Source: a virus. Taken from it: 38,800 nt of DNA. The stretch covers positions 1 to 38,800 of IMG/VR virus record IMGVR_UViG_3300021061_000035, one strand, 5' to 3'. This document shows, piece by piece, positions 2,913 to 37,860 of the stretch. Position 1 is the stretch's first letter; every line of letters begins with the position of its first letter. The notes under the pieces were generated by a model, which did not search any database, was not told where the DNA came from, and was given only the letters and a program-made list of their open reading frames with translations. Both the position numbers and the translations under genes were made by a program.

Positions 2913-3785
2913 ATGAAAGACGAAATCCTAGCCAGATTTGTAGAGTATTTGAAGCTTGAAAAGTCAGGCGGACTCTGTGAAGGGACGATCAGGCGCTACT
3001 TATTAAGCCTAAAATACGTCACCGCCGACAATAGTTGCGACCTGTTAACGGCTAAATCCTATAAAGACGCTGCAGGGCTTATTCGGCTATCGAGAGCCAA
3101 GCGTAACTGGAAGAGCGCAACGACCAAGCACGCCGCTGACGCTATATCGGTATTCTATACCTGGGCCTGCCGGGAGGGTATTATAGAAGACTCGCCGATG
3201 AGGCTAGGGCATGAGTTTAAGAATAACGACCCACGCCAGATGGACTTCTTTGATTGGGGTTCTCCAGAGTTTCAAAAGATCCTACACGACCCTAATAATT
3301 CTGTGCGGTTTACAGCCATCCTGCATACTCTCCGATCATCGGGTATGAGATCGTCCGAGCTTTGCAACCTCAAGAAAACAGATCGACGGGACAAGCGCTG
3401 GTTTCGGATTTCAAAAGGCAAAGGCGGGGCCGAGCGTTTTGCGCCCATAGATGAAGAGTGTTCTAATTGGCTGGATATATATGAACGGAGAAGAGATCTG
3501 CATTATAGCGGGGAATGGTACTTTACAACCGAGCAATATAAACCGTTATCCCCCCACACCCTTTGGAAGAACATCTACAAAAGAGGCAAAAAACTAGGCT
3601 TCCGGGCTTACCCTCATAAGTTCCGCAAATCCTTGGGCGGGGAGCTCATTAAAAGGGGAGCGGATATTAGTGTGGCGCAGCAGGTTTTGGGCCATGCCGA
3701 CGTTAAAACAACCGCTAATTATTACACTGGATTTACCAAAAAGACCCTCCTTGATATATACGACAAGACACTAGAAACCGCATAG
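2913..3785 (+). CDS. int: Tyrosine recombinase (phage integrase)
   Basis: This 290-aa protein catalyses site-specific recombination between attP and the host attB. The N-terminal part (about 1-110) resembles a SAM-like core-binding domain. The catalytic domain shows R146 (SSGMRSSELC), the beta-turn lysine region (KGKGG, 168-172), H235-K-F-R238, then LGH (259-261) and the nucleophile candidate in NYY (Y270 or Y271). All required residues are present, so the enzyme looks intact. There is no strong SD before ATG 2913. A tRNA 3'-half about 420 bases downstream is the probable attP core, which is the standard int-attP arrangement. Confidence 0.95.
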   Translation: MKDEILARFVEYLKLEKSGGLCEGTIRRYLLSLKYVTADNSCDLLTAKSYKDAAGLIRLSRAKRNWKSATTKHAADAISVFYTWACREGIIEDSPMRLGHEFKNNDPRQMDFFDWGSPEFQKILHDPNNSVRFTAILHTLRSSGMRSSELCNLKKTDRRDKRWFRISKGKGGAERFAPIDEECSNWLDIYERRRDLHYSGEWYFTTEQYKPLSPHTLWKNIYKRGKKLGFRAYPHKFRKSLGGELIKRGADISVAQQVLGHADVKTTANYYTGFTKKTLLDIYDKTLETA

Positions 3786-3862: not shown

Positions 3863-4000
3863 ATGCAGTTGAATGAAAGACTTGAAGTTAGACTTAAAAA
3901 GACGACCAAAGAGAACCTTAAAAAGGTCGCTAAAAAGCAGTTTAGAAAGCCTTCCGAAATGGCGAGAATTATCATCGAGAAGGCTGTTGACAAGAAGTAA
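3863..4000 (+). CDS. Second ribbon-helix-helix regulator
   Basis: This 45-aa protein reads as a minimal RHH protein: strand NERLEVRLKK, helix one TKENLKKVAKKQ, turn FRKPS, helix two EMARIIIEKAVDKK. The length equals the bare family core. Its ATG lies about 6 bases after a consensus -10 and lacks an SD, suggesting leaderless translation. The promoter carries a palindrome shared with the other RHH gene. It lies between integrase and attP, where excisionase or Cro-like regulators are usual. Whether it is repressor, antirepressor or excision factor cannot be told from sequence. Confidence 0.75.
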   Translation: MQLNERLEVRLKKTTKENLKKVAKKQFRKPSEMARIIIEKAVDKK

Positions 4001-4022
4001 TTCAGGAGTAAAATCTAGCATC

Positions 4023-4208
4023 ATGAATCAGGCAAATGTGCAGCCTAGCAAAGATTATCCCGGAAAATCAGTTTTCTACCAGCTCCGCTCACGAGGCGAA
4101 GCCTTCCTATCCGGGATGATCGCGGCCTGCACACCGCTTGCCCGCTTCGTGAGCTTGTTTGCTCCCTCAAATTGGGCTATTAACCAATCTAGTTCACTGA
4201 CCTCCTGA
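4023..4208 (+). CDS. Possible small protein ending in attP
   Basis: A 61-aa frame starts at ATG 4023, 14 bases after an AGGAG box, and stops inside the tRNA-like attP core. It contains a basic stretch (YQLRSRGEAF) and a hydrophobic central part. No family is recognised. The same DNA holds inverted repeats (4057-4064 with 4110-4117; 4087-4094 with 4147-4154) that could be integrase or excisionase sites, so the frame may be fortuitous. If real, integration would change its 3' end. Confidence 0.3.
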   Translation: MNQANVQPSKDYPGKSVFYQLRSRGEAFLSGMIAACTPLARFVSLFAPSNWAINQSSSLTS

Positions 4209-8202: not shown

Positions 8203-8572
8203 GCCGAATGAATGGCTGAAAATTATGCGCGAATCTTCAACGGTTGAAGAGGGAATTACAGCCACTTATATCCGGGCTATGCAGCCGGATTGCTTTAATC
8301 ACTATCGCTGGATCAGAGACCCATTTCCGCCTCAGGGATGGCATCAAAGCCATGAAGTCTATCTCAAGGTATCCGGAAAAGGTTCTGAGAAATCCGAGGC
8401 TTGGAGAAAACTGGAAGAGAAATACAGCGGTTATATCAAAGCTTGTGACGGTGTAAGAGCTGCTAATAGATCGAATAAAAAGTTCCTCGAGGACATGAAG
8501 GCTCATTTTGAAAAGCTTGGGATGCTCAGTTACAAACAGATCGTGGAAGAAAGATTACAGGAGTTTTCGTGA
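8150..8572 (+). CDS. Helicase-loader-position protein of unknown family
   Basis: This 140-aa helical protein overlaps the replication gene by 53 bases in another frame, a position often occupied by helicase loaders. It has a Trp/Pro-rich middle (HYRWIRDPFPPQGWHQ) and a charged C-terminal helix. No Walker motif is present, so it is not an AAA+ loader of the DnaC type. The role is unknown. Confidence 0.6.
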   Translation: MTVENLKTETASLLSKYEPNEWLKIMRESSTVEEGITATYIRAMQPDCFNHYRWIRDPFPPQGWHQSHEVYLKVSGKGSEKSEAWRKLEEKYSGYIKACDGVRAANRSNKKFLEDMKAHFEKLGMLSYKQIVEERLQEFS

Positions 8573-9003
8573 TGTTTTACGGACGCAAAGCCAAATCATA
8601 CCCTAACGACAAGCTGTACTCTGAGATTATCAGGATGCCTGGATATTGTTTTCGCTGCGGGAAAACCTCAAACCTAACATGTGCCCACATCATGAAGCGG
8701 AGGCATTATCACACGCGGTTTTTACTCAAGCCGAAGCCTAACGCGATCCCGCTCTGTACGAACTGCCATAGCTGGTTCGATACGCACATGATTATGGCCG
8801 TATTACTTGACCCAAAGAAAAGAGTTTTCAACCACACGGAAGAGTCATTTACGTTTCTGGTTGAGAAATGCGGATATTCATGGGGCGAGCTTTTAACGCT
8901 GCTTGCGAAATCAAAAGAAACTTTCACCAACTACAAAGGCAAAAAAGACCAGATTAACATTCAGCTCAAAGAGGCAAGGGCTGAGATATTGGGTGAATCA
9001 TGA
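8572..9003 (+). CDS. HNH-type nuclease
   Basis: This 143-aa protein has a zinc-supported HNH layout: CFRC (26-29), CAH (37-39), H45 and H47, then N57 and LCTNCHSWFDTH (C62, C65, H66). The AH and the later N and H match the beta-beta-alpha-metal core of HNH endonucleases. In phages such enzymes act in recombination, packaging or as resolvase-like factors. An SD (AGGAG) lies nine bases before ATG 8572; a GTG at 8569 overlapping the previous stop is an alternative. Confidence 0.8.
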   Translation: MFYGRKAKSYPNDKLYSEIIRMPGYCFRCGKTSNLTCAHIMKRRHYHTRFLLKPKPNAIPLCTNCHSWFDTHMIMAVLLDPKKRVFNHTEESFTFLVEKCGYSWGELLTLLAKSKETFTNYKGKKDQINIQLKEARAEILGES

Positions 9004-10263: not shown

Positions 10264-10535
10264 AGGAATGGGAGAAGAAAGTTAATTTAGCCTGGGAGAA
10301 GTTACGCTATTCGTCTGAGGATAACGGCACATTTACTTACGGTGTTAAAGCTGGTCAGTTTAAGAGAATAGCTAAAGAATTAATGCGCTATGCATACGTC
10401 AAAGGATTAGAAAGGGCTGCAAAGATAGCAATGGACTGGGATGGAGAGTCGCATTATTGCCAAATGGAGATTGTTGAAGCAATTGAAGAAGAAGCGAAGG
10501 TTAGGGGGACGGAATATGGAACAAAGAATCGGTAG
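10260..10535 (+). CDS. Small helical accessory protein
   Basis: This 91-aa protein is helical with a basic centre (FKRIAKELMRYAYVKGLERAAKIA) and an acidic end. It is coupled to the previous gene by ATGA, and its 3' end overlaps the next zinc-ribbon gene by 20 bases. No domain is recognised. Confidence 0.6.
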   Translation: MKEWEKKVNLAWEKLRYSSEDNGTFTYGVKAGQFKRIAKELMRYAYVKGLERAAKIAMDWDGESHYCQMEIVEAIEEEAKVRGTEYGTKNR

Positions 10536-10665
10536 CTGTAGTTTATGTGGCGGTGATGTTTTAGGCTTTGTTGGTGTTTGGATGGCGACTGTACCGCCTC
10601 CACCGCCAAGATGTTCCGGATGTGGAGCCAGGCCAGCGGCGGATGTAATACAAATGGTTAAATAA
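10516..10665 (+). CDS. Zinc-ribbon protein with polyproline
   Basis: This 49-aa protein carries two knuckles, CSLC (residues 8-11) and CSGC (33-36), separated by a segment with five prolines in a row. ATG 10516 follows an AGGGGG SD; the frame is open further upstream but lies inside the neighbour there. It is the last protein gene before the structured RNA region. Confidence 0.65.
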   Translation: MEQRIGSCSLCGGDVLGFVGVWMATVPPPPPRCSGCGARPAADVIQMVK

Positions 10666-10669
10666 CTTA

Positions 10670-11180
10670 CGAGCCTTGTCTGCGTGGCTGAAATTAACAG
10701 CACGTATTCCTAAGCAGATCACCGAGGGTAATGCTAGGAAGCGGTTGGGTCGACTCGGTCAATTACTTGCAGGTATGGCCAATCCTGCCGTAGACAGGCT
10801 CAGAGATATGCTGGATGAGTTAAGGACAAAATCCGAGACACTCTGGAAACAGGTGAAGCTGTGGTGGTTTTACAAAAACTCGGAACAAAACTTAGCCATC
10901 CGGCGCAAATTGAGGTTGAGAGCGTATCAAGGCGTAACTCTGTTTCGTAAAGACACGATTAAGACATTGGACGGACAATGTGGTCGGCGGAACAGTTTAG
11001 ATTCCGAAATGGGATAGTTTCCCTACCTCAACCTCTCCTTATGGGGGCTAAGGGCGATAGAAGCCCTAAATCTGAAGCAATAGGGGAACTTGCGGGTCTT
11101 GCAGGACGGGGACGCAAAGTAAGTAGCTCGAGACAATGCTTACTACCGAGTTGACAGATTAACACCTGCTAGCCCCCTAA
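10670..11180 (+). ncRNA. Large structured non-coding RNA (about 510 nt)
   Basis: No convincing protein gene lies here, but local stems follow each other almost without gaps. H1 is 10681-10690 with 10698-10706 (9 bp, one bulge). H2 is 10707-10716 with 10732-10740 (9 bp, one bulge) and stacks directly on H1. The H2 loop ACCGAG (10721-10726) can pair with CTCGGT (10754-10759), giving a pseudoknot. Further stems are 10769-10773/10784-10788, 10832-10837/10879-10884, 10964-10969/10976-10981 and 10988-10992/11002-11006. The 3' domain is closed by GGGGGCTA (11043-11050) with TAGCCCCC (11170-11177). It contains 11051-11055/11063-11067, 11069-11074/11155-11160 and 11118-11123/11139-11144, with a second pseudoknot 11127-11130/11147-11150. 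Two tRNA-like elements follow. Size and setting resemble phage GOLLD and ROOL RNAs, but membership is not shown. Confidence 0.7.
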
Positions 11181-11188
11181 CTTATCAA

Positions 11189-11254
11189 TGGGCCATAGCT
11201 CAAAAGAAAGAGTCGGATTATTCCGAGGTTGCTGGTTCAAGTCCAGCTGGCCCC
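11189..11254 (+). tRNA. tRNA-like element with reduced anticodon arm
   Basis: Acceptor strands GGGCCA (11190-11195) and TGGCCC (11248-11253), T8-A9, a D arm GCTC/GAGT and a perfect T arm (GCTGG, TTCAAGT, CCAGC) are all present. The anticodon arm is collapsed: CGGA (11214-11217) and TCCG (11222-11225) enclose only TTAT, leaving no 7-base loop. CCA is not encoded. It is either a decayed tRNA or a tRNA mimic. Confidence 0.55.
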
Positions 11255-11262
11255 TTTAACAG

Positions 11263-11335
11263 TGTGGCCTTAGTGTAAATAGTCAGCATATCAGGTTGTG
11301 ATCCTGAAGGTCTGGTGCAAATCCAGAGGCCACCC
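11263..11335 (+). tRNA. tRNA-His(GUG)-like gene
   Basis: The anticodon arm is canonical: TCAGG (11291-11295), loop TTGTGAT with anticodon GTG, and CCTGA (11303-11307). The T arm is TCTGG/CCAGA with loop TGCAAAT, and the acceptor pairs GTGGCC with GGCCAC. The D stem is weak (about three pairs), the variable loop has only three bases and CCA is incomplete, so function is uncertain. Confidence 0.65.
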
Positions 11336-11361: not shown

Positions 11362-11400
11362 ATGAAGGAACGAGTAATTGTAAGGGAAGGTGCGAGATGA
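11362..11400 (+). CDS. Possible 12-aa leader peptide
   Basis: A 12-codon frame starts after a strong SD (AAGGAG about 10 bases upstream) and ends at an ATGA overlap with the gene at 11397. The SD is better placed for this frame than for the downstream gene, so the peptide may bring ribosomes to the next start. Confidence 0.4.
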   Translation: MKERVIVREGAR

Positions 11401-15174: not shown

Positions 15175-15444
15175 ATGGCCCCATCCAACTGGAAAGACAA
15201 TCCTTGGAGTGTAAAGAAAGAATGGGCCAAGAGATATTACGACGAACTCTTTTACAGCAATATCGAGATAAGGTCCCTGATGTACTGGGCGACCGGGAAA
15301 TATCCGAGACCTTTAGAGCGGACAGAAAATGATTACCAAAAACCGCATCCTCAGGGCGAAGTTGAGACAGACGCGGTTGAGCCTGAAGAGGGCTTTAAAG
15401 CTGGGAACGCTTATAGAGAAAGAGAAAGTTATCCCGATCTATAG
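15175..15444 (+). CDS. Hypothetical protein before terminase
   Basis: This 89-aa protein is Trp/Tyr-rich at the N-terminus (NWKDNPWSVKKEWAKRYYDELFY) and acidic later. It starts four bases after the terminator T-run and has no SD, so it may be leaderless or start further in. It is the first gene of the virion region. No family is recognised; a terminase-associated role is possible by position. Confidence 0.55.
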   Translation: MAPSNWKDNPWSVKKEWAKRYYDELFYSNIEIRSLMYWATGKYPRPLERTENDYQKPHPQGEVETDAVEPEEGFKAGNAYRERESYPDL

Positions 15445-15550
15445 GCTGTGCTGGATGGTGATCAAGTTATCGGGCGGCGTAACAGTCTTTACGGCATTGA
15501 TCGTTTTATTCATGTTTTTATACATATTTAGCTACCGGGTGATCCCATGA
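15329..15550 (+). CDS. Small basic protein with C-terminal membrane span
   Basis: This 73-aa frame has a basic N-terminal half and one strong hydrophobic segment (about 50-70; TVFTALIVLFMFLYIF). It overlaps the previous gene by 116 bases, so a shorter start at the in-frame ATG 15455 is possible. It couples by ATGA to another small membrane protein. A membrane role is supported; the full length is not certain. Confidence 0.5.
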   Translation: MITKNRILRAKLRQTRLSLKRALKLGTLIEKEKVIPIYRLCWMVIKLSGGVTVFTALIVLFMFLYIFSYRVIP

Positions 15551-16135: not shown

Positions 16136-16364
16136 TCTCGAATTAAAACATAAAAGAAAGATTTTAAATTGGGCCGGCACTAACTGGCATAAGCTCAAAG
16201 AGGCGAGTAAGGTAAAGATTTGGTGTGCTTTGATCTCGAAGGAGTTACCTTCAAAAATTGAGGGAACTGGTGAAGGTGGCGAAATTGTGATTCGAGTGGA
16301 GAAAGCAGAGACGAATGGAAATCAGTTACAAGCTCCACGATTTGCAGTACCAAATTTACAGTGA
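16119..16364 (+). CDS. Putative small terminase-type protein
   Basis: This 81-aa protein is helical and basic (LELKHKRKILNWAGTNWHKLKEASKVKIW), with a short beta-like end (GEIVIRVEKAE). It lies immediately before and overlaps the large terminase by 50 bases, where the DNA-recognition subunit is normally encoded. It is shorter than most small terminases, so the call depends on position and composition. Confidence 0.5.
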   Translation: MPKLNSLELKHKRKILNWAGTNWHKLKEASKVKIWCALISKELPSKIEGTGEGGEIVIRVEKAETNGNQLQAPRFAVPNLQ

Positions 16365-17604
16365 CCCATCCAGGTTTGTAGTGGTATCTGCCGGACGGCG
16401 GTTTGGTAAGACCGTGCTGGCAGTAGTGAAGATGATTACGAGGGCAATGGAGAGCAAAAAGGCTCTCATATGGTACATCGCTCCGACGTATAAGCAGGCG
16501 AAAATGATCGCCTGGAAAATGCTCCTTGAAATGACGCCACAGAAATTAGTGGCGAAAAAGAACGAAGTAGACCTAGAGCTGACCATGATTAACGGATCTT
16601 CGATCTGCCTTAAAGGCGCAGATAACGAAGACTCATTAAGAGGAGTGGGATTAGATTTCGCGGTCTTAGATGAATATGCCTCAATGAAGCCAAACGTATG
16701 GCAGGAGATTATCCGGCCAATGTTGTCAGATCGTCAGGCTCCAGCGTTATTCATTGGTACGCCAAAAGGTAAAAATCATTTTTGGGAGATTTGGCTTAAA
16801 GGTCAGCGTAAAGAGAGCGGGTTTTCAAGCTATACGGCAAAGACAGAGCAGAACCCGTATATCCCTAGAAGCGAAATAAAAGACGCGAAAGACATTTTAA
16901 ATGACCGGTACTTCAAGCAGGAATACGAAGCCAGTTTCGAAGACTATACGGGGCTTATCTGGCCTGAGTTTACGCCAGAATTACACGTTATTGAACCGTT
17001 TGAAGTACAGCCTTGGTGGGAGACGGTATCGTCGATTGATACAGCGCTGTCTGGCACTACTGCTTGTCTCAATGCTTGCGTTGATGACAACGGCACTATT
17101 TATATTACGAAAGAGTTTTACGAGCAAAACAAGCGGGTCTCAGAGGTTGCAGACGCTGTAAGAGACTGGAATCCTGGCATGTGGTTGATTGATCCTGCAG
17201 CCAAGATCAAGAACGTGAATAAGCTCGGCAGTCTTTATTCGCTCTTTGATGAGTACAACGATAACGGGATCATGGCTTATCCGGCTGAGAATGATGTGAA
17301 TGCCGGGATTAACCGAGTAGCGGAATATTTCAAGCTAAACAAGCTCAAGATATTTAGTAACTGTAAGAACCTGATCCATGAGATTGAACGATACCATTGG
17401 GCTGAGGAGCGCGAGACGGTCCAAGGGATAGTCGTTCCGAAGCCTTTTAAGAGTTTAGACCATGCCTGCGACGCGATGCGGTATTTAGTGATGTCCAGGC
17501 CTCAAGCTGCGAAGCTAGAACAAAAGATCGTGAAGGGCTCCTTTGAAGATTGGGAGCGACGGGAACAAGCGCAGCGAGAAAACAGGATAGAATTTGATGA
17601 GTGA
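16315..17604 (+). CDS. terL: Large terminase (packaging ATPase/nuclease)
   Basis: This 429-aa protein drives DNA into the prohead and cuts it. The ATPase has Walker A SAGRRFGKT (25-33), Walker B FAVLDE (115-120) and coupling motif GTPKG (148-152). The nuclease domain has acidic residues at D242 (SSIDTA), D293 (WLIDPA) and in LDHACDAMRY (D382, D386). All motifs are intact and the length is normal. ATG 16315 begins inside the putative small terminase. The 3' end overlaps the portal start. Confidence 0.95.
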   Translation: MEISYKLHDLQYQIYSDPSRFVVVSAGRRFGKTVLAVVKMITRAMESKKALIWYIAPTYKQAKMIAWKMLLEMTPQKLVAKKNEVDLELTMINGSSICLKGADNEDSLRGVGLDFAVLDEYASMKPNVWQEIIRPMLSDRQAPALFIGTPKGKNHFWEIWLKGQRKESGFSSYTAKTEQNPYIPRSEIKDAKDILNDRYFKQEYEASFEDYTGLIWPEFTPELHVIEPFEVQPWWETVSSIDTALSGTTACLNACVDDNGTIYITKEFYEQNKRVSEVADAVRDWNPGMWLIDPAAKIKNVNKLGSLYSLFDEYNDNGIMAYPAENDVNAGINRVAEYFKLNKLKIFSNCKNLIHEIERYHWAEERETVQGIVVPKPFKSLDHACDAMRYLVMSRPQAAKLEQKIVKGSFEDWERREQAQRENRIEFDE

Positions 17605-37069: not shown

Positions 37070-37860
37070 TGGGAAACGGCGCTCGGTCAGTTGACGATCA
37101 ATTAAGTTACGCATCAACCTATACGCCATTTGCTCGAAAATTTAATTTGAATTTTCCAGGCTCAACAGCGGCGGCAGCAGCAAGTGGGTATATCACCACA
37201 GCCAGAGCTTGTGAAACACTTGTTGTTCCGAGTATGAATGCAGCTTTGTCCGGGGCTTACATGTTTACTTTTTGGGCAAATGGTTACACCCAGTTATCAA
37301 ACATTCATCCATGTCTTGAGGTGGATCTAGGCACGTTAACTGTTGTCGGTAACTCATTCTCAGGATCAGCGTCAATGCCATCTCGCGTGTTTTTTGGAGC
37401 CGGGACGGATGCAATTACAATAGCTTCTTCTTTTGTTGTGATCACTTGTGAAACCACATCAGCTGGCCATTCTGGAGGCGCAACCCTTACAACCACTTAT
37501 ACAAACCAGGCTGGAACAGGAGGCAGAACCGCGACGATCACCATGCCAGCCGCCGCAATTACAAACTCAACTGTTTTCAATTTAACTCCATACTTCCAAG
37601 GCACAGATACTGGCGTAAGAACGGTAACAAATATGAGTGTGACATCCGGGACAGCTGGCGTCTTTAAATGTAAAGGACTAATTCCGCTTAGCGGAACGTA
37701 CAGCGGAGCAGGAACCGGGCATTCATCTACTCCGCCAATTTTCAGTATGCCAAATAGGATTCCTAAGCTTCAAACAGGTGATGTGATTGGATTTTACCGA
37801 ACTGGCGAAACAGCTAACCGAGACATTTTGTGTAATGTGATTTTAGGAGCAGATGATTAA
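37069..37860 (+). CDS. Tail-appendage protein, paralogue 2
   Basis: This 263-aa protein is related in its second half to the genes at 36045 and 37860: LTTTYTNQAGTGGRTATITM, then DTGVRTVTNMSV, then KCKGLIPLSG and GDVIGFYRTG. The N-terminal third differs and contains a few Cys (about residues 48 and 83). It begins on the last base of the preceding stop and overlaps the next start by one base. Confidence 0.65.
   Translation: MGNGARSVDDQLSYASTYTPFARKFNLNFPGSTAAAAASGYITTARACETLVVPSMNAALSGAYMFTFWANGYTQLSNIHPCLEVDLGTLTVVGNSFSGSASMPSRVFFGAGTDAITIASSFVVITCETTSAGHSGGATLTTTYTNQAGTGGRTATITMPAAAITNSTVFNLTPYFQGTDTGVRTVTNMSVTSGTAGVFKCKGLIPLSGTYSGAGTGHSSTPPIFSMPNRIPKLQTGDVIGFYRTGETANRDILCNVILGADD

Follow-up and report, generated by a model that had tools for sequence, protein, structure and literature searches.

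Genomic setting

What fills the stretch of about 510 nt that separates a small zinc-ribbon-like gene from two tRNA-type elements in a phage genome? An initial annotation had read it as a large structured RNA, possibly GOLLD, ROOL or a new class, and had found no credible protein gene there. The window analysed here is a 38.8-kb virus record from IMG/VR. It is most likely the genome of a temperate tailed phage, judging from its integrase, replication and late gene content. Besides the integrase and an HNH nuclease (Table 1), it encodes a helicase loader of the DnaD type as well as an exonuclease, and the late region carries a large terminase as well as weak matches to portal, scaffold and head-closure proteins. 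No close relative of the window was present in the GenBank phage set. The nearest relative in IMG/VR, G001 (IMGVR_UViG_3300020202_000147), has late genes in common with the window, and its large terminase is 70% identical.

The zinc-ribbon-like protein, for which a Pfam search returned nothing significant, is 82% identical in G001 and 71% identical in L098, and the early genes around it are otherwise dissimilar in both relatives. The segment of interest, 10671-11177, is embedded in a run of genes on a single strand (+) and fills the gap available to it: it starts 6 nt past the stop codon of the zinc-ribbon-like gene (10665) and ends 12 nt short of the first tRNA-type element. The nearest open reading frame (ORF) on its 3' side lies at 11397, which is 220 nt past the RNA and beyond both tRNA elements. 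When the + strand was scanned for a promoter or terminator of the RNA, none was conspicuous.

Table 1. Coordinates of the features discussed in the text (positions in the window)
Feature	Position	Strand	Basis or remark
Tyrosine integrase	2913-3785
HNH nuclease	8569-9003
49-aa four-cysteine zinc-ribbon-like protein gene	10516-10665	+	GGGGGA 5' of ATG; stop just ahead of domain I
RNA domain I, three-way junction	10671-10801	+	MFE; main-helix pair probabilities 0.9-0.98
113-codon ORF, TTG start (rival reading)	10676-11017	+	No Shine-Dalgarno
RNA domain II, long rod, helices 8+6+6+8 bp	10810-10904	+	Pair probabilities 0.90-1.00
RNA domain III	10912-11035	+	Perfect 9-bp closing helix GAGGUUGAG/CUCAACCUC
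RNA domain IV, closing helix GGGGGCUA/UAGCCCCC	11043-11177	+	Main-helix pair probabilities 0.75-0.99
tRNA-like element	11189-11255	+	Rfam RF00005 35.9 bits, gathering 29
tRNA-His (GTG)	11264-11335	+	ARAGORN; Rfam 51 bits; cloverleaf

Predicted fold of the large RNA

The claim of a large structured stretch was borne out. The MFE structure of 10666-11188 contains 161 pairs, which are arranged in four consecutive domains spanning 10671-11177. Most helices have pairing probabilities of 0.85-1.0 and are retained when the RNA is folded in 1.1 kb of its natural context. The predicted MFE is -182.3 kcal/mol compared to -151.5 +/- 6.0 kcal/mol for dinucleotide shuffles (z -5.17), and none of the 100 shuffles was equally stable. 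In a tiling of the window at the same length (523 nt), the RNA reached a z-score of -7.2 (40 shuffles) and ranked best of 73 tiles; the 72 other tiles averaged -0.44 +/- 1.22, and the lowest of them scored -3.5. The opposite strand is less stable (-148 vs -182 kcal/mol on the + strand), and G+C content is 48.4% in the RNA vs 42.5% in its flanks. Structure at the RNA level is thus statistically well supported by these predictions, which concern one sequence; single-sequence folding can mislead, and good folding is also seen in some coding parts of the window.

Domain I is closed by a helix of 6+7 bp (10671-10684/10789-10801) and bears two arms: 10685-10761, which consists of 7 bp and a long interrupted hairpin, and 10769-10788. 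The two 9-bp stems that had been described as abutting at 10706/10707 were not recovered: the MFE structure instead shows one interrupted hairpin (4+3+6+3 pairs) in which A10706 is bulged. Domain II folded by itself gave a z-score of -5.7 (20 shuffles). The closing helix of domain III, with a pair probability of 1.00 when folded alone and 0.96 in context, joins 10912-10920, inside the 113-codon ORF, to 11027-11035, past its stop codon. The 8-bp stem that had been assigned to the 3' end (11043-11050/11170-11177) is exact, with a probability of 0.99, and closes domain IV.

Two pseudoknots had also been proposed. Their partners, ACCGAG/CUCGGU and CUCG/CGAG, are indeed complementary, but both pairings are disfavoured by stronger competing helices or by steric strain. 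In the first, the 3' strand is already engaged, as 10755-10761 pairs with 10685-10691 (probability 0.94). We judge both pseudoknots unlikely on steric grounds, as the loops would have to cross about 16 bp with 6 nt and 8 bp with 2 nt, respectively. Hairpin 11118-11144 of domain IV has an 11-nt loop that presents the palindrome CUCGAG. In total, three 6-nt palindromes are predicted to be unpaired in the RNA (GUCGAC, UGGCCA and CUCGAG) vs 1.3 expected, a difference that is not significant; they would suit self-association of the RNA.

A degenerate tRNA-like element and a tRNA-His

Two tRNA-type elements follow the RNA, as had been annotated, and the second of the two Rfam matches covers 11264-11334. 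The first element was not called as a tRNA by ARAGORN. Its MFE structure is nevertheless a clean cloverleaf with a 6-bp acceptor stem, a perfect T arm and pairing in all four arms. The anticodon arm is truncated to a 4-bp stem and a 4-nt UUAU loop in place of the usual 7-nt loop, and the element is therefore unable to decode. Its D loop (AAAAGAAA) contains a single G and no GG, and CCA is not encoded. The element aligns to the tRNA-Asn of SPO1-like Bacillus phages at 75%, apart from a deletion within its D/anticodon region, and it is therefore probably the descendant of a phage tRNA. That its arms are predicted to stay paired despite the deletion suggests that it is still in use.

RNase P mainly needs the module formed by the acceptor and the T arm, which the tRNA-like element has kept. 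The enzyme has been reported to recognise D-loop guanosines at the elbow (PMC11693755); these are missing here, so that cleavage at this element may be poor. The tRNA-His that follows has two features that are unusual for a bacterial tRNA-His: a U rather than a G is encoded at position -1, and the T loop reads UGCAAAU, with G replacing U at position 55.

Searches for related RNAs

We searched for known families and for homologues of the RNA. A permissive scan of 4,227 families of Rfam 15, the covariance-model search that the initial annotation had called for, gave no credible match other than the tRNA elements. The models of GOLLD (RF02032, gathering 150 bits) and ROOL (RF03087, gathering 99.1 bits) were also searched directly and returned nothing at E<=10; the ROOL result rests on the standard Rfam model, which gave no match in 14 control genomes either. 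The original interpretation is supported as regards a large structured RNA beside phage tRNAs but not as regards GOLLD or ROOL. One further candidate was rejected: GGGGACGCAAAG resembles the core of the c-di-GMP-I (GEMM) riboswitch, but Rfam gave this no support.

At the DNA level, blastn of the RNA against phages yielded tRNA-level matches only, and against plasmids none. Only tRNA or chance matches were found by DNA search among 1,928 genomes (10 + 1,918; mostly from five phyla), one of them falling within a coding gene. Across IMG/VR, the exact 16-mer GGGGACGCAAAGTAAG had six matches, all unrelated, the 14-mer GAAGCAATAGGGGA had 120 matches whose flanks showed no similarity, and a motif pattern of the domain I junction had three, attributable to chance.

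In G001, the zinc-ribbon gene is present, and neither a recognisable RNA nor any tRNA was found. Single-sequence covariance models were built from domains I and IV. The domain I model weakly matched a gap in G001 (L009 1061-1187, minus strand) with 11.6 bits and an E-value of 0.017 in 3 kb, and the junction and flanking bases lined up. We rejected this candidate: its E-value is 0.53 over 96 kb, unrelated sequence reaches 11.8-13.4 bits, and the alignment of the gap sequence to the RNA is no better than that of shuffles (p 0.25). The noncoding gap itself (L009 970-1200, minus strand) lies 1.2 kb past the zinc-ribbon gene and carries a repeated GCCAGCATTTAAT. Overall, the RNA gave no credible match to any catalogued family and was seen once.

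Alternative explanations

The same DNA could encode a small protein of 113 codons whose mRNA is strongly folded by accident. Only 3% of composition shuffles contain an ORF of this length, and a separate coding test was therefore needed; the deduced protein moreover looks plausible, being amphipathic and rich in Trp and Leu. We used position-specific base composition, because a whole-codon log-odds test failed to separate genes from non-genes here. Read in its own frame, the ORF has no bias between codon positions (-0.04 bits/codon, with 2 of the 42 window genes scoring lower). The same absence of periodicity is seen in 3873-4208 and 15329-15550, which are likely genes. Shuffling of synonymous codons does not decide on coding, since the ORF (z -3.3) does no better than part of a genuine gene, that of the terminase (16315-16653, z -3.6). 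Against a gene stand the missing Shine-Dalgarno sequence and the lack of any PHROG or significant Pfam match. No relative was found by tblastn against phages (best E 0.7) or by back-translated patterns of the 5' and 3' parts of the frame in IMG/VR, and G001 has no similar stretch. Furthermore, the structure runs past the stop codon up to the tRNA-like element, with the 9-bp helix of domain III spanning the stop. We consider a protein gene rather improbable and the stretch much more likely to be noncoding. The structured-RNA reading is supported by the fold statistics, the placement from stop codon to tRNA, the weak coding signal and the helix that crosses the ORF stop.

If the stretch is noncoding, it might act in cis, as an operon spacer or leader that controls tRNA processing or translation of a neighbour, rather than as a free RNA. 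Its location directly 5' of the tRNA elements, within a same-strand gene run and with no clear promoter or terminator of its own, is compatible with such a role. However, it matches no riboswitch or leader family in Rfam, and the nearest downstream ORF is separated from it by the two tRNA elements. Known leader elements are much smaller than this RNA, which measures about 510 nt and consists of four domains, each closed separately, and we regard a cis-acting element as unlikely. Decay is a further explanation, in which a degenerate tRNA island and a broken gene would have a fold arising by chance. The degenerate first tRNA, the absence of a detectable island in G001 and the lack of any homologue in our searches all fit with this scenario. 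Against it stand z-scores of -5 to -7, beyond those of all other window tiles, and the pairing in all four arms of an element that has suffered a deletion, an outcome not favoured by random decay; we find decay improbable. Finally, the RNA could be a very divergent GOLLD or ROOL. These are of comparable size, likewise occur in phages and have tRNAs as neighbours (PMC12286853), but the failure of both models, in the direct searches as well as in the permissive scan, makes this very improbable.

Comparison with known tRNA-linked RNAs

In phages, GOLLD and ROOL occur close to tRNA islands; they assemble into RNA-only cages whose function is unknown (PMC12286853). Both are large, ornate RNAs of phages and prophages, GOLLD lying near or within tRNA islands, a location that the window RNA has as well, and ROOL near them with a length of about 570-660 nt. 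The window RNA differs from both in having no match to their covariance models, and many GOLLD members exceed 800 nt. A second likeness is to phage K (Kayvirus), in which lnc001 and lnc002 are long RNAs in gaps beside phage tRNA genes. Of these, lnc002 (37679-38832, minus strand) is transcribed during infection (PMC9241854). In the phage K genome (KF766114), lnc002 ends at the base adjoining tRNA-Asp (37605-37678), an arrangement that would be expected if RNase P makes the lnc002 3' end. The final 523 nt of lnc002 are also more stable than shuffled sequences (z -4.2). In contrast to the window RNA, lnc001 and lnc002 are longer (635 and 1,154 nt) and AT-rich, belong to a large myovirus and are followed by normal tRNAs. 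They share no sequence similarity and no convincing domain-model match with it, and their transcription is known, whereas the window RNA is predicted from sequence.

We made two further observations on phage tRNA regions. A part of lnc001 beside tRNA-Met (L228 233-369) gave a match of 43.4 bits to the Rfam family DUF3800-I, whose gathering threshold is 44.2. The 237 nt that separate tRNA-Ser from tRNA-Asn in Bacillus phage phiNIT1 (L222 174-410) carry no gene annotation and include a strong, long hairpin; they are possibly another tRNA-linked RNA.

The tRNA-like element itself recalls a different system. In MALAT1, cleavage by RNase P removes the tRNA-like mascRNA from the 3' end (PMC11693755), and in both MALAT1-mascRNA and MENbeta-menRNA the 3' end of a long noncoding RNA is produced by RNase P at a non-functional tRNA-like element, as we propose here. 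Like a mascRNA-type element, the element of the window has an intact acceptor and T arm and an altered anticodon arm. The mammalian RNAs, however, have no sequence kinship with it, and the two guanosines that the D loop of mascRNA retains for the elbow are absent from the phage element.

Proposed processing and implications

Taken together, we give a little better than an even chance to the following reading: the window encodes a stable, unclassified noncoding RNA of about 510 nt that is co-transcribed with tRNAs, released by RNase P and active as a free scaffold or regulator. Transcription would proceed rightward through a series of small early genes and tRNAs to which the segment 10671-11177 belongs. 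Having lost decoding and kept its acceptor/T-arm module, the degenerate tRNA would direct host RNase P to cut at about 11188/11189. This cut would free the large RNA at its 3' end and give a tRNA-like fragment its 5' end, and tRNA-His would mature by the same route. Once released, the RNA would most likely act as a free-standing scaffold or regulator in the infected cell, in the manner of GOLLD, ROOL and phage K lnc002. In kind, it is credibly a tRNA-linked phage long noncoding RNA, as are GOLLD, ROOL and the phage K lnc RNAs, of an unclassified family.

A bolder version, which we hold to be speculative and unlikely to be right, is that the RNA represents a new class of large phage RNA in which a decoding-dead tRNA serves as a dedicated RNase P device and self-assembly proceeds via UGGCCA and CUCGAG. 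If true, it would be a phage counterpart of MALAT1/mascRNA; GOLLD and ROOL assemble by other contacts.

Phages that are not related to one another repeatedly carry large structured RNAs next to their tRNA genes, and the function is known for none of these RNAs. An additional, sequence-unrelated case in a temperate phage of about 39 kb would strengthen the view that this is a convergent strategy over that of a single-lineage oddity. Furthermore, the broken tRNA alongside offers a hypothesis for why such RNAs adjoin tRNAs, namely that the tRNA machinery may cut them out.
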